Below, piece after piece: positions 291 to 5,063 of a stretch of 5,063 bases of DNA. Source of the stretch: a bacterium (GTDB lineage Bacteria > UBA9089 > CG2-30-40-21 > SBAY01); contig JBFLYA010000268.1 in the NCBI GenBank assembly GCA_040757115.1, positions 1 to 5,063 of the forward strand. Direction: 5' to 3'. The notes below the pieces were generated by a model. The model was not told the origin of the DNA. It did no database searches and was given only the letters and a program-made list of their open reading frames with translations. The position numbers were made by a program, and so were the translations under genes. The number at the start of each line of letters is the position of its first letter. Position 1 is the stretch's first letter.

Positions 291-309
291 CTGATATTCC
301 TTCTGAAAA

Positions 310-344
310 TAAGGAAGTAGAAAGTAGAGAGTAGAAAGTAATGA
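310..344. repeat. Heptanucleotide repeat array A (GTAGARA units)
   Basis: Consecutive 7-base units GTAGAAA (317-323), GTAGAGA (324-330) and GTAGAAA (331-337) are flanked by degenerate units TAAGGAA (310-316) and GTAATGA (338-344). The array lies 20 bases upstream of the likely start of the reductase-like gene, so it would be in its leader or in the intercistronic RNA. Its core 18-mer (317-334) is exactly the reverse complement of 615-632 in array B. Confidence 0.7.
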
Positions 345-353
345 AAACATCAT

Positions 354-628
354 TCCTCACGCCTATCTCCTTACCTCCCACCTTCTATCTCCTACCACTA
401 TTTTCATCCTCCTTTCTCCTAAAAATAGCCGTGAGAATAGAACACGGATGACACGGATTTAACGGATTTTCGCTGATTTTTTTCTCTTTTTTCTATCTTA
501 TATCTATCCGCGAATATCCGCATCATCAGCGTGCTATTATTTTTCATCGTCATTTGTGCCCACTCCCTGTGGACATGGCCGTTTCTCCTAAAAAAAGACC
601 AAAGACCAACTTACCTACTCTCTACTTT
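354..628. other. Gene-free spacer between tatA1 and the reductase-like fragment
   Basis: No credible gene lies here. The stretch holds a pyrimidine-rich tract (355-418) with roughly 7-base periodicity in CTATCTC/CTACCAC-like words, an imperfect palindromic repeat (435-540), another pyrimidine tract, and the start of heptad array B (615 onward). The plus-strand ORF at 531-716 is low complexity and overlaps tatA1 in antisense, so it was not accepted. I see no GC-rich terminator stem. Confidence 0.6.
435..540. repeat. Imperfect inverted repeat of the CACGGAT/ATCCGYG type
   Basis: The left arm (about 435-478) contains the words ACACGGATG, ACACGGATTT and AACGGATTTTCGCTGAT. The right arm (about 505-540) contains ATCCGCGAATATCCGC and ATCATCAGCGTGCTATT, which align to the reverse complement of the left arm with several mismatches and a gap of about 6 bases. 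The loop is AT-rich (479-504). Within the left arm, CACGGAT-like words are also tandem. It resembles the small palindromic dispersed repeats of many uncultured bacteria. No coding capacity is seen. Confidence 0.6.
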
Positions 629-649
629 CTACTCCCTACTCTCTATTCT
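615..649. repeat. Heptanucleotide repeat array B (CTACTYT units)
   Basis: Five units in perfect 7-base register: CTACTCT (615-621), CTACTTT (622-628), CTACTCC (629-635), CTACTCT (636-642) and CTATTCT (643-649). It runs into the 3' end of tatA1, where the array provides the last six codons and the stop (629-631). Positions 615-632 are an exact inverted copy of 317-334 in array A. Confidence 0.8.
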
Positions 650-844
650 CTTCAAGTCTTCTAACGGCTTTGTGATTTCTATATCTTTCAAATTCACACC
701 TTCTTTTAATTCCTGAGTTGCTTTCCTGAACTCTTTTATTCCTCGACCTATTGCCTGTCCTAATTCAGGTAATTTCTTAGGGCCAAAGATAACCATTGCT
801 ATGATGAGAATAAGTATCAATTCTGGCATCCCTATTCCAAACAT
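629..844 (-). CDS. tatA: Sec-independent translocase subunit TatA (copy 1)
   Basis: A 71-residue TatA/E protein of the twin-arginine translocation pathway, which moves folded proteins, including many molybdoenzymes, across the cytoplasmic membrane. After MFGIGMPE comes a short membrane helix (about residues 7-20, [13 protein letters not shown]), then the FGP hinge (20-22) and an amphipathic helix beginning [20 protein letters not shown] (23-42), followed by a charged tail. The length is normal for TatA and short for TatB. The ATG at 844 follows a strong GGAGG (about 851-855), which fixes the start. The last six residues, RIESRE, and the TAG stop are encoded by heptad array B, so the original C-terminus may have been replaced; this tail is normally dispensable. 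It lies 277 bases after the paralogue tatA2. It could serve as TatA or as a TatB-like partner; which one cannot be told. Confidence 0.93.
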
Positions 845-866
845 AATTAACCCTCCTTCCTTCGGT

Positions 867-887
867 TATAGTCTATAGTCTATATAG
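867..887. repeat. Heptanucleotide repeat array C (TATAGTC units)
   Basis: Three units in register: TATAGTC (867-873), TATAGTC (874-880) and the degenerate TATATAG (881-887). The array lies 11 bases beyond the tatA1 ribosome-binding site, in the spacer between the two tatA genes. Confidence 0.75.
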
Positions 888-925
888 CACTTATTAATCG
901 AAATTTGACATAGATATGGTTCTGA

Positions 926-1056
926 AATTCCAAATCACAAATTCCAAATTCCAAATAAATTCAAATAACCAAAATTCAAAACATTACTTCCATAGTTTGT
1001 ATTTAGGACTTGAAATTTGGTGTTTATTTGAGATTTGGTGCTTGTGATTTGGGATT
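926..1056. repeat. Palindromic CAAATTCCAAAT-type repeat
   Basis: The left arm (926-980) is built from tandem words such as ATTCCAAATCACAAATTCC and CCAAATAAATTCAAATAACC. The right arm (about 1008-1056) is TGAAATTTGGTG...TGAGATTTGGTGCTTGTGATTTGGGAT. Its reverse complement aligns along the whole left arm (ATCCCAAATCACAAG... against ATTCCAAATCACAAA...). The transcript of the tatA2-tatA1 spacer could fold into a long AT-rich hairpin of about 45 imperfect pairs with a 27-base loop. It looks like a non-autonomous dispersed repeat and has no coding capacity. A role in transcript processing or attenuation between the two tatA genes is inference only. Confidence 0.7.
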
Positions 1057-1100
1057 TTTTTTACTTATCCACTCTGAGTAAAGTTTTGACTAATAACTGC

Positions 1101-1127
1101 TATAGTCTATGGTCTATGGTTCTATGT
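1101..1127. repeat. Heptanucleotide repeat array D (TATRGTC units)
   Basis: Units TATAGTC (1101-1107), TATGGTC (1108-1114) and TATGGTT (1115-1121), then CTATG after one extra base. The array touches the TAG stop codon of tatA2 (1122-1124), whose complement CTA is part of the repeat word. Confidence 0.7.
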
Positions 1128-1301
1128 ATTAGCAGTCTTTTGTTTTTCCTTTTCCTCATCACTATTAGATGATACTGATTGTTTAAATCCTTTAATCCCT
1201 TCTCCTAAGGATTTACCAAGTTGTGGTAATTTATTCACCCCAAAAATAATGACCACAATTAGTAAGATAACTAATAATTCCGGCATACCAAGTCCAAACA
1301 T
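1122..1301 (-). CDS. tatA: Sec-independent translocase subunit TatA (copy 2)
   Basis: A 59-residue TatA paralogue: [21 protein letters not shown], then [20 protein letters not shown], then a short polar tail rich in Ser, Glu and Lys. It shows the short membrane helix (about 7-20), the F-G hinge with Val where copy 1 has Pro, and the amphipathic helix with LPxLGxxxGxGIKxF. The ATG at 1301 follows GGAGGT (1311-1316) with 9 bases spacing. The first 31 bases overlap the 3' end of the MOSC gene, so the ribosome site lies within MOSC coding sequence and translation is probably coupled. The stop touches heptad array D. The role is pore formation in twin-arginine export; two diverged copies may divide TatA- and TatB-like work. 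tatC is not in the window. Confidence 0.93.
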
Positions 1302-1777
1302 TCCTTATTCACCTCCTTTATCTCATCACCTATCTTAATCATACCACCTTTTAGAACTCGGGCAAAGATTCCTTCCTTAGGCATAACGCAGTCCCCTGCC
1401 TGATAGTAGATAGCGCATCTGGTATGGCAGACCTTGCCTATTTGACTTACCTCCAAAATGACATCATTACCTACCTGAATCTGGCTACCCACGGGTAAAG
1501 AAAGCAAATCTATACCTGAGGTAGTGATATTTTCGGCAAAATCTCCTGGGGAAACATCAAGTCCCATCTGCCGCATCTTTTCAATTGATTCTTGAGCCAA
1601 AAGGCTAACCTGGCGATGAGAGGTTGCAGTCTGTTCCTCTATGCTGAGATTAGCATGGCCATTGGCTTTAAGCCCACACCCTGCTATTACTTCCCAGCTC
1701 CCATCTACCGGCTTCTTCCGCTGCCCCTTGTTCTTGCTGATATTAACAGACACCACACAAGCTATCTCTTCCTCCAA
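1271..1777 (-). CDS. Stand-alone MOSC-domain protein (molybdenum cofactor sulfur-carrier type)
   Basis: A protein of up to 168 residues that is almost entirely a MOSC domain. Numbering from the TTG at 1777, the family pattern runs from [11 protein letters not shown] (8-18) through [15 protein letters not shown] (54-68) and GDFAENI (78-84). It then has GKVCHTRC (114-121), GDCVMP (128-133) and [10 protein letters not shown] (136-145). Cys117 is the likely conserved sulfur-handling cysteine; Cys121 and Cys130 are also typical. MOSC proteins bind or sulfurate Moco, or act in thiol chemistry of N-hydroxylated compounds. Many bacterial homologues near moaA are fused to or adjacent to MogA/MoaB, but no such domain follows here. 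The start is uncertain: TTG at 1777 lies inside a GGAGG-like stretch, and GTG at 1756 is a plausible alternative with a long spacing. The 3' end overlaps tatA2 by 31 bases. Confidence 0.85.
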
Positions 1778-1782
1778 AAAGC

Positions 1783-1873
1783 GGTTATCGTCTATCGTTG
1801 ATGGTTTATAGTTTATAGTGTATAGTTGATGGTTGATAGTCTATAAACTATAAACGATAAACTATAAACGATG
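1783..1873. repeat. Long heptanucleotide array E with hairpin
   Basis: Thirteen consecutive 7-base units fill the moaA-MOSC gap without register slip: GGTTATC, GTCTATC, GTTGATG, GTTTATA, GTTTATA, GTGTATA, GTTGATG, GTTGATA, GTCTATA, AACTATA, AACGATA, AACTATA and AACGATG. The first nine share a GT(N)TATA-like form. The last four resemble the complementary form, so 1804-1818 and 1841-1855 are exact 15-base inverted copies with a 22-base loop. The array begins 2 bases after the moaA stop and ends 5 bases before the TTG of the MOSC gene, so any hairpin would form in the mRNA just ahead of the MOSC start. Confidence 0.85.
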
Positions 1874-2865: not shown

Positions 2866-4043
2866 TCAAGACCTGCCAATCACAAGTTGTGAATAGCGCC
2901 TAATCCATTCCAAAATCATTCCAAAACCACAGGCAATGGCTAAGTTATTGGTAAAGACAGCAATTATTCCAATTAGACAGGCTAATAGAAATCCCTTTTC
3001 TCCGATTAAGTCGCTAATCAAGAGACAATGTTTTAAACCTACATACATTACCATTATACCAAGAATAGCTGGAGAAATCAACTTAAATATTTCACCCATT
3101 CCTTTGCCGAAGAAGAAAGCCAATCCTATATAAATGCTACCGATGATGATGCAGGCTATCCCTGTGCGTGCTCCGAAGCTATAATGGGCAGTTAAACCAC
3201 CTGAACCATGACAAATAGGCATTCCCCCAGACAACCTATGACCATATTAGCGGTGCCTAATCCAAGACACAAAGAGGTTTCAGTAACTCGCCTGGCTTGC
3301 TGACCAAAGTATTTTCTAGCTACATCTGTTGTAGAAATAATTGAATTGCCTAATGTTAAAGGTAATTGTGGAATGACTAAAAGAAAAAAGGCGTTAATAA
3401 AATCGTCAATCTTAGGAATAGATAGACTGAATTCTGGCATATTAAACATTTGGATGGCAGAATGCTCCATTCCTCTGGTTAACAAATTTAGCCCTATTCC
3501 CCAGATTAATATGGCAATTGTAGCAGGAAACCCTTTATTCCAGAGAAAAATAGATATAATCACTAATCCCCCAAAAATCATCAGCAGTTGGAAAGGTATT
3601 CCTCCTGATAAACCACAACTACCCTCGGAGATGATTGATTTAGTAATCATCTTCCAACTTGTATTTACTAACATCAACCCTATTCCTAACTGTATTCCTT
3701 TTATTATTGGCGGGCTAAACAGACAAGTCAAAAGTCTGGTTAATCCAGTTATTGCCAGTAACAATAAGATTATCCCCATTAATATCCCTGCGGCATAAAT
3801 TAATGAAGGGCTGAGACTATTAGCAATAGCAATAGCCGCTAAGGCTTTTAAGGGTTGAACAGGCATCGGTAGTTTATAATAAAAACCAGCAATTATATAT
3901 ACCAATCCAACCATCAATAAACTCACTGTGGCATTCAATCCATTTATAGCGATAAGAGATACATAGATTGGGAGGAGTGTGGGAATATCTCCTAAGGCAC
4001 CAGATAATTCAGTTAAGAATGTTTTTTTATTATTTTCTTTCAT
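2866..4043 (-). CDS. MOT1-family molybdate/sulfate transporter, interrupted by a one-base frameshift
   Basis: A multi-pass membrane protein of the MOT1 / putative sulfate-molybdate transporter family; it would be 392 residues if the frameshift is repaired, a normal length. The ATG at 4043 is chosen because AGGAG lies 5 bases upstream; an upstream in-frame TTG (4082) is not needed. Family motifs are PMPVQPLK (59-66), QLPLTLGNS (226-234) and GGMPICHGSGGLTAHYSFGARTG in two frames (273 onward). Many hydrophobic helices are visible. Frame 1 runs to a stop at 3192; the second frame continues from about 3228 to 2866. The break is at a G5 run (plus-strand C5, 3224-3228): six Gs would give CLG-GMPICHG uninterrupted. 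The neighbours moeA and moaA point to molybdate as substrate; this is context, not proof. If the slip is real, the last 118 residues are lost and the gene is probably inactive. Confidence 0.9.
3224..3228 (-). other. Frameshift site in the transporter gene
   Basis: The run of five C on the plus strand (five G in the coding strand) lies in CTG-GGG-GAA-TGC. One more G restores CTG-GGG-GGA-ATG, coding L-G-G-M of the conserved GGMPICHG motif. The change is a one-base loss, or a sequencing or assembly error at a homopolymer. Confidence 0.85.
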
Positions 4044-4062
4044 TATATCTCCTGAAAATGGG

Positions 4063-4080
4063 CTGTCTGACCTGTCGGAC
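4063..4080. repeat. Tandem 9-base repeat and near-palindrome in the moeA-transporter gap
   Basis: CTGTCTGAC (4063-4071) is followed directly by CTGTCGGAC (4072-4080), differing at one base. The 7-mers GTCTGAC and GTCGGAC are also near-complementary to each other across two bases. It lies 20 to 37 bases upstream of the transporter ATG, where an operator could sit, but the two-base spacing does not make a useful hairpin. It may instead be a dispersed GTCNGAC-type repeat. No regulator can be named. Confidence 0.4.
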
Positions 4081-4097
4081 AATCCCCTATGTTTTCC

Positions 4098-4989
4098 TCA
4101 ATCCAGCAAATATGCCTCAACCTCTATTCCTTGTTTCAACTCCGTTACCTCTTCAGGCACTACCACTAAAGCATTGGCTAAGACGAGAAATTTCAATATC
4201 CCGGAACCCTGCGGTCCGGTTGGGAAGGCTTGATAATGATTATCTTTCCTCTCTATTCGGACCCGCAAAAAGAATTTTCTACCTGGTTTTTTTCTGAAGT
4301 CCTGCATCAATTCTGCCTTGACCACTGTTCGATAAATATCTTTATGCCCCATCATCTTAAGCAAGGCAGGTCGAACAAAGATCTCAAAGCAAATTATGGC
4401 AGAAACAGGGTTACCTGGTAAGCCAAAAATAGGTTTAGTATTATGCAAGGCAAAGGTAATGGGTTTGCCAGGCTTTATAGCAACCTTAGTAAATTGGACC
4501 TCTGCACCTATATCTTCAAGCACCTTCCCTACTAAATCATAGTCCCCCATAGAGACTCCGCCGGAGAGAATGACAACATCAGATAATACTAATGCGTTAA
4601 GTATAGCCTCTTTTATCCTCTGGCTATTATCCGGAACAATCCCCAGTTGCACAGGTTTTGCCCCCACCTGCCTTACCTGAGCCTCTAAGGCATAGCCATT
4701 GCTATTTCTCTTTTTGCTCCAGGTTAGTTCCTCATCTAAATCTATCAATTCATCGCCTGTAGAAATTACACTTACATAAACCTGTCGGATAACATCTATT
4801 TCTTTGCTACCCAGAGCTGACAGCATACCTATCTCTTGAGGTCGAATAACGCTATCTTTTTTTAATTACCAGCTCTCCTTGAATTACATCCTCACCCTTT
4901 AACCTAACATTTTCACCCTTCTCAACAGGGTAAAATATTTCGACCTGTGAAATAGGTCTATCCTTTTTATTTATGCAGCCTTTTTTAGC
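4098..4989 (-). pseudogene. moeA: Molybdopterin molybdenumtransferase MoeA, 5'-truncated and frameshifted
   Basis: MoeA inserts molybdate into adenylylated molybdopterin in the cytoplasm. From the in-frame ATG at 4826, 242 residues cover most of the protein: TGDEL (23-27), SGGVSMGDYD (88-97), KPGKP (118-122) and GLPGNPVSA (135-143) of the catalytic MoCF domain, then the C-terminal beta domain ending in EVEAYLLD. This ATG is not the true start. Before it, DSVIRPQEIG belongs to MoeA, and after a one-base shift at the A7 run (4857-4863) the other frame reads IFYPVEKGENVRLKGEDVIQGELVIK, cited here as two adjoining parts, IFYPVEKGEN and VRLKGEDVIQGELVIK. Six As instead of seven would join them. 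Upstream of about 4960 the MoeA similarity fades, and a TGA lies at 4990-4992. The N-terminal 130 or so residues of a usual 400-residue MoeA are absent. Confidence 0.88.
4857..4863 (-). other. Frameshift site in moeA
   Basis: Seven T on the plus strand (seven A in the coding strand). With seven, the upstream frame gives ELVIKKR then TAG at 4852-4854; with six, it reads ELVIKKDSVIRPQEIG, which matches MoeA throughout. The slip is one extra A in a homopolymer. Confidence 0.85.
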
Positions 4990-5063
4990 TCAAAGAGTAT
5001 CTGCCTCTTCTTAATCCAATTATCTTGTTCATTGTTTTGGTGCAAGGTAATAACTGAAGCCAA
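4971..5063 (-). CDS. C-terminal 30 residues of an unidentified protein entering from the right edge
   Basis: The frame is open from the window edge and ends at TAA (4971-4973). The tail starts LASVITLHQNNEQ and ends NWIKKRQILFELKKAA. It is basic with a probable helix, and it is not MoeA sequence. The tail overlaps the point where MoeA similarity fades. It could be the end of a transposase inserted in moeA, a foreign gene joined by assembly, or a chance ORF. I do not recognise the family. Confidence 0.3.
   Translation of the reverse strand: MASVITLHQNNEQDNWIKKRQILFELKKAA

Follow-up and report, generated by a model that had tools for sequence, protein, structure and literature searches.

The abundance of seven-base repeats in bacterial genomes has, to our knowledge, been reported since 2007, and its cause has stayed unsettled. 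Several described systems come close to what we report here. The BrickBuilt, 464 and PgRS MITEs of Porphyromonas gingivalis carry an internal tandem array whose unit number varies by copy and strain, can lie one inside another, and are present or absent at sites with a target duplication (PMC4596501). They are also exclusively intergenic, which we count as a further likeness, and they differ in having 23- and 41-nt units in direct orientation, about 10-20 copies and IS5-type ends (PMC4596501). RUP of Streptococcus pneumoniae, which is mobilised by IS630-Spn1, and the Correia/NEMIS elements are small, non-coding intergenic palindromes with inverted ends, a TA target and long stem-loops (PMC2229807). 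REPs are palindromes 20-40 bp long, one foot of which is an unpaired GTAG or CGTC, and REP/BIME sequences form high-copy intergenic palindromes, arranged in clusters and mosaics and often nested in other palindromes (PMC3733652). Intergenic heptamer arrays of two to many units, finally, are known from the work of Mrazek in 2007 (as cited in PMC4679880), from cyanobacterial STRRs, from the GGGAATC repeats of Xanthomonas and Nostoc, which are sometimes inverted and then yield stem-loops (PMC4692102), and from the TAACTGA repeats of Beggiatoaceae, for which a binding-site role has been proposed (PMC4679880).

The locus analysed here resembles all of these and coincides with none. Compared with BrickBuilt and its kin, it has 7- to 10-base steps, inverted arms and interchangeable cores, and its elements occupy much of the intergenic DNA. 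One of them, here called MITE-1, differs from RUP and Correia/NEMIS in its ends, in that a partner insertion sequence was not found, and in a heptamer-hairpin core that is swapped between copies. The heptamer reports cited above concern a single word or a handful per genome, without a mobile shell, whereas here there are dozens of words, many of which are the arms of dispersed elements. REP/BIME sequences are set apart by size, by their GTAG or CGTC foot, which is missing here, and by the TA duplication of MITE-1. The components (array-bearing MITEs, TA-target MITEs and heptamer arrays) have each already been described. For their combination, in which inverted heptamer arrays serve as exchangeable cores within conserved mobile shells, we found no description in the open-access literature searched.

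Results

Organization of the locus

The window, i.e., the whole stretch of DNA that was analysed, is 5,063 nucleotides long and constitutes the entire contig JBFLYA010000268.1 (C268) of a draft genome (GCA_040757115.1, hereafter G000) of 4.3 Mb in 462 contigs. Its minus strand encodes MoeA, a MOT1-type molybdate transporter, MoaA, a MOSC-domain protein and two TatA proteins, together with the start only of a sulfite/nitrite-reductase half-domain protein. The moeA gene (4098-5063) is frameshifted, its N-terminal part lying in another frame upstream of about 4860, beside a T run; the transporter gene is split across two frames (2866-3234 and 3192-4082) near a C run at 3224. These frameshifts are either sequencing errors or signs of pseudogenes. 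The repeat features of the window are the following.

303-407, minus strand: module A, a dispersed palindrome whose ends are CTGAAAAT / ATTTTCAT
413-548, minus strand: second dispersed module, made of ACGGATT-type words and linked to module A by a short joint
541-592, minus strand: joint with a small covarying hairpin, in the sense direction AGGAGAAACGGCCATG-TCCACAGGGAGTGGG-CACAAATGACGATGAAAAAT
615-651, minus strand: array 2, GTAGARA-type heptamers (Tandem Repeats Finder, TRF), running over the 3' end of tatA (629-844), stop codon included
867-884, plus strand: array 3, left part of a TATAGTC array (TRF); the left TA of the target duplication lies at 883-884
885-1102, no strand assigned: MITE-1, a 218-bp palindromic element with ends TAGCA(C/G)TTATTA(A/G)TC(G/A)AAA
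1103-1127, plus strand: array 4, right part of a TATAGTC/TATGGTC array (TRF 1100-1126); 1103-1104 is the right TA
1783-1873, no strand assigned: array 5, a TATAGTY-type hairpin of two inverted heptamer arms that fills the moaA/MOSC spacer

Frequency of period-7 arrays

TRF recovered five period-7 arrays in the window (315-340, 615-651, 867-884, 1100-1126 and 1785-1872), close to where the first-pass annotation had placed them, as well as a period-7 stretch of AAATTCC at 925-956 that was absent from its list. Allowing at most 3 mismatches, the window contains the triple CTATAGTCTATAGTCTATAG 3 times, compared with 0.00 in 200 shuffles.

The frequency of such arrays was surveyed in 603 kb of G000 (14% of the genome, taken as stretches), in 420 kb of a sister species, G001, some stretches of which share 97-99% identity with G000, and in 790 kb belonging to other phyla. 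In the stretches sampled, genes were delimited by simple ORF calling, with no gene finder, and the counts refer to non-overlapping intergenic arrays with a TRF score of at least 40, harmonics being pooled. The G000 sample contains no arrays of period 5, 7 of period 6, 90 of period 7, 54 of period 8, 12 of period 9 and 44 of period 10. It had been suggested at the outset that the pattern would be chance if period 7 were no commoner than periods 6 or 8 in the spacers of this genome; at 90 arrays versus 7 and 54, it is commoner, and 7-base units are in excess over the other periods, as in heptanucleotide simple sequence repeats. A good part of the period-8 count comes from one word family, AAGGAGAT, which is the opposite arm of the element to which array 1 belongs. 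Period 7 prevails in G001 as well (3, 52 and 16 arrays of periods 6, 7 and 8) and also in the other phyla (3, 8 and 1), where the density, about 10 per Mb, is roughly fifteen times lower than the 149 per Mb of G000. Other dispersed short-period families occur in the G000 sample with periods of 8 (AAGGAGAT, ACGCAGAG, ACACAGAG), 10/20 (AAATAGATAG, AAATAGGTTGAAATTTATAG) and 17; i.e., the step is not always 7.

The lead of period 7 even in other phyla is what would be expected from independent slippage, whereby the array in each spacer grew from a chance seed, slips of 7 nucleotides being favored, with no mobile element involved. Independent slippage was proposed by Mrazek et al. in 2007, who also proposed that 7 nucleotides is the length contacting DNA polymerase (as cited in PMC4679880). 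The large number of unrelated words likewise agrees with it: after rotation and strand reduction, the G000 sample holds 49 distinct period-7 units. This number bears out the initial observation that the period is shared while the words are not. Of the two generating mechanisms suggested with it, slippage would fit the length differences in steps of whole 7 bp, described below; no result points to a 7-base-step enzyme, to which these tests would have been blind. The word families are also taxonomically narrow. For example, the two species of this genus have 171 and 129 GTAGARA triplets, compared with 0 in the family's other genus, and 5 of 155 genomes contain such triplets at all.

Inverted partners and dispersed flanks

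A reverse-complement partner was found within 150 bp of 40 of the 90 intergenic arrays of period 7, 14 or 21, compared with 3 for random flanks and 9 for a reversed query. Moreover, the flank of 79 of the 90 period-7 arrays (88%) is repeated elsewhere in the sample. The corresponding figures are 189 of 300 (63%) for random intergenic spots and 40 of 300 (13%) for random coding spots; the contrast between arrays and random intergenic DNA is modest because the intergenic DNA of G000 is mostly dispersed repeat. Conserved, non-periodic flanks around dispersed copies, as well as inverted partner arms, are at odds with independent slippage. Nor do they support the first-pass view that a shared mechanism, rather than copies of one element, underlies the arrays: in addition to the dispersed flanks, arrays 1 and 5 belong to high-copy dispersed elements.

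Module A and the joints between modules

Module A is about 105 bp long, has complementary ends, and occurs in tens of copies in both G000 and G001; its best copies are 94-97% identical over positions 300-415 of the window. One arm is array 1 (GTAGARA heptamers, 310-344), and the opposite arm consists of AAGGAGAT-type octamers. Among copies, the array measures 17, 24 or 31 bp, or 25 or 32 bp with one extra A, i.e., it varies by whole units. With inverted ends ATGAAAAT/ATTTTCAG, high copy number, and presence or absence at an orthologous site, module A shows three features of a MITE. The latter feature is seen in a 147-bp module-A cassette that is found in G001 only and not in G000 (loci L301 and L302). 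This 147-bp difference is edged by the direct repeat TTTCCCCTGAAAATAG, itself part of the joint sequence; it could reflect an insertion or, equally, a deletion by recombination between the direct repeats.

When folded as RNA, the gene-sense strand of module A is more stable than the antisense strand in 30 of 30 copies (mean -41 vs -22 kcal/mol), a gap that arises because pairing relies on G.U pairs. This sense-strand bias suggests that module A, at least, is probably transcribed as a 5'-UTR hairpin of the adjoining gene, although the purine/pyrimidine bias of its arms could have another cause.

The second module (413-548) is matched, at 82-94% identity, by several sites in both G000 and G001, and the composite of module A and an ACGGATT-type module is also found in G001, on contig C38. 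Joints string together modules of different words. In these joints the frame is conserved, and the stem sequence changes while complementarity is kept; the recurrent stems are GAGCC/GGCTC, GAACC/GGTTC, GTCCAC/GTGGAC, GCCCAC/GTGGGC and GAGTC/GACTC. Modules end at AAAAT, not AAAATA, and a strict joint pattern retrieves 4 copies only. An integron attC-like reading of the joints, to which their covarying stems had pointed, was discarded, as no GTTRRRY/RYYYAAC boxes were recognizable by eye. Judging from sequence, modules seem to lend genes a ribosome-binding site (541-592 in the window; loci L218-L237 elsewhere), and an ORF of at least 60 aa starts no more than 15 nt away from 11 of the 49 ATTTTCAGGRGAA module ends.

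This proximity to gene starts, the intergenic location and the strong sense-strand hairpin of module A could be taken to mean that the heptamers are binding-site arrays, i.e., direct repeats recognized, in 7-base steps, by a regulator that binds DNA or RNA. However, the words are dozens and unrelated, the unit number varies freely, and, as shown below, orthologous moaA/MOSC spacers hold different element families. A general binding-site function is therefore most improbable, although some copies may have a secondary regulatory role.

Array 2 and the end of tatA

Array 2 runs into the 3' end of tatA, so it is not purely spacer. It supplies the last TatA residues and the stop codon (629-651; translation RIESRE-stop), and appears to be a heptamer array that was recruited into a coding end. 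Across 629 kb of G000, its flank (585-614) has no match at other GTAGARA arrays; only the array part matches.

MITE-1 and the array that it splits

When MITE-1 and one TA are removed from the window, arrays 3 and 4 join into TATAGTC TATAGTC TATAGTC TATGGTC TATGGTT, five heptamers in register. Arrays 3 and 4 were one array before MITE-1 inserted; the five arrays originally described are thus real, but they are not five independent arrays. The ends of MITE-1 are TAGCASTTATTA, and its terminal inverted repeats, TAGCACTTATTAATCGAAA and TAGCAGTTATTAGTCAAAA, are those of a MITE. Its core is an AAATTCC/GGAATTT heptamer hairpin (915-1060) that folds at -43 kcal/mol (z -6.3). A target-site duplication, TA, is found on both sides of the element in the window; TA also precedes the end in 36 of 39 copies, and in 85 of 99 in a larger set that was partly fetched with a TA-containing pattern. 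As befits a high-copy dispersed element, the end pattern has 158 matches in G000 and 129 in G001, while the reversed pattern has 0 in both. Of 19 genomes of the phylum, 10 contain matches to the ends; the reversed control gave a single match, in a genome without the ends.

Paired copies of MITE-1 (n = 26) measure 104-487 bp, inside the range of about 50-1000 bp expected of a MITE, and, like MITEs, have no transposase gene. Elsewhere, the same ends enclose cores built from different words, and a further hairpin can lie in the loop of the original one. In these draft genomes, no transposase with MITE-1 ends was found, the DDE_3 loci inspected having no matching ends; nor was there, in the loci inspected, a large autonomous element of more than 487 bp between MITE-1 ends. 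The DDE_3 (IS630-type) genes were discarded as the source of MITE-1, since the ends at the inspected loci differ; G001 has no DDE_3 match at all. Viral contigs contained no MITE-1 ends.

Array 5 and the TATAGT hairpin

Array 5 folds strongly on both strands (z -8.1 on the minus strand and -4.9 on the plus strand). With both palindrome strands counted, it is matched 123 times in G000 and 55 times in G001. Its best-preserved relatives have a fixed left flank ending in AACTCG, a left arm of TTTATAG-type units that closes with TATAGTC, a CTT loop, and CAACTAT-type units in the right arm. The left arms, as delimited by fixed flanks, comprise 18 distinct sequences of 30-114 bp, all of them 2 modulo 7 in length, and unit number correlates moderately between left and right arm (Spearman 0.50, 27 copies). 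The TATAGT hairpin is embedded in a bigger, dispersed mosaic that measures at most about 480 bp and whose two borders vary among copies (L001-L005, L022). A search of Rfam 15 with the window and nine related loci returned no family at gathering score, and only sub-threshold miRNA look-alikes, which we take to be generic long hairpins.

High-copy, clustered, intergenic palindromes are also what REP elements moved by RAYT (Y1) transposases would produce; GTAG occurs within the array words, and there are 6 PF01797 matches in G000 and 5 in G001. We nonetheless consider a REP/RAYT origin very unlikely. The elements here are about 80-480 bp in size and have long inverted ends, MITE-1 duplicates TA, and another genome, G017, has TATAGTY arrays with no PF01797 match. 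Across genomes, the presence of Y1 transposases does not track that of the arrays, and these enzymes were rejected as the source. Likewise, the elements end in TAGCA, CTGAAAAT or CTCGTTTATAG, and do not fall in the GTAG or CGTC superfamily of the REP class.

Comparison with relatives

Arrays and elements were compared between G000 and G001. The CCGAGTC and TGGTAAA arrays differ between the two by exactly one 7-bp unit, and whole 7-bp length steps are as slippage or unequal exchange would give. Entire elements differ as well. An element with a TAATCGG/CCGATAA hairpin core is found at a TA in G000 and is absent at the G001 site; conversely, an element with GGTAACCG/CGGTTACC ends, a 9-bp direct repeat, CCTTTTTAG, and a nested MITE-1 is found in G001 and not in G000. 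These presence/absence and length differences are unpolarised, i.e., each may be a gain or a loss. Target duplications were seen for MITE-1, and at single sites for two other elements.

The moaA/MOSC spacer is occupied differently in each genome compared. In G000 it holds array 5; in G001, a palindrome some 300 bp long that contains CACAGAG words; in G002, an AAATGCA-like array; and in G013, a TCCGTG palindrome. In G007 there is a bare 6-bp junction, the genes nearly abutting. Two further MOSC genes exist in G000; it is the copy on contig C244, not that of the window, that matches the G001 copy on contig C97, and this contig stretch is 98.5% identical between the two.

Exact 7-bp changes are readily explained by independent slippage, but the presence or absence of whole elements between sister species is not, and for arrays 1, 3/4 and 5 slippage of this kind is contradicted. 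That is, slippage alone accounts for length change, and not for dispersal or inverted arms; as a full explanation, it is improbable.

That the same elements recur in other families, and in another, independent genome of this genus, also bears on whether the repeats are an artefact of assembly or binning, i.e., misassembled repeats or a contig foreign to the bin. Repeats can break assemblies, the draft comprises 462 contigs, and some genes in the window are frameshifted. Yet array 1 matches other G000 repeats at 94-97% identity, and the sister species is also enriched in period 7, so that an artefact is scarcely conceivable.

Discussion

Taken together, these data indicate, with a probability that we put at about 0.78, that the arrays are the arms and cores of small, non-coding, palindromic, MITE-like elements that were spread by transposition, altered by unit slippage or recombination, and often nested in one another. 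For the most part, the arrays would then be an unusually dense form of a known kind of genomic parasite.

In this mechanism, a transposase acting in trans would move palindromic elements into spacers and into one another; in the case of MITE-1, insertion would be at a TA target, in a Tc1/mariner/IS630-like mode. Slippage or unequal exchange within the arms would then add or remove heptamers, and new word families would become established lineage by lineage. This last step would explain why the arrays share a period without sharing words.

Against this mechanism stand the failure to find a transposase with matching ends in the loci inspected, and the 7- to 10-base step of unrelated cores, which a moving agent leaves unexplained. 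A tentative extension, which we regard as possible but doubtful, is that conserved mobile shells have their hairpin cores rebuilt again and again from new words of 7- to 10-base step, partly through a new periodic hairpin set into the old loop. Hairpin-linked copying or template switching would create inverted heptamer arrays de novo and, if this is true, arrays would have the step in common and not the word.

Because the repeats are tied here to hairpins with identifiable ends, pairs of occupied and empty sites, and countable units, spread by insertion and slippage of units become separable and measurable. Spacers made of nested hairpins also affect the annotation of such genomes, as illustrated by an array-derived protein end and by candidate module-derived ribosome-binding sites, and they affect their assembly.
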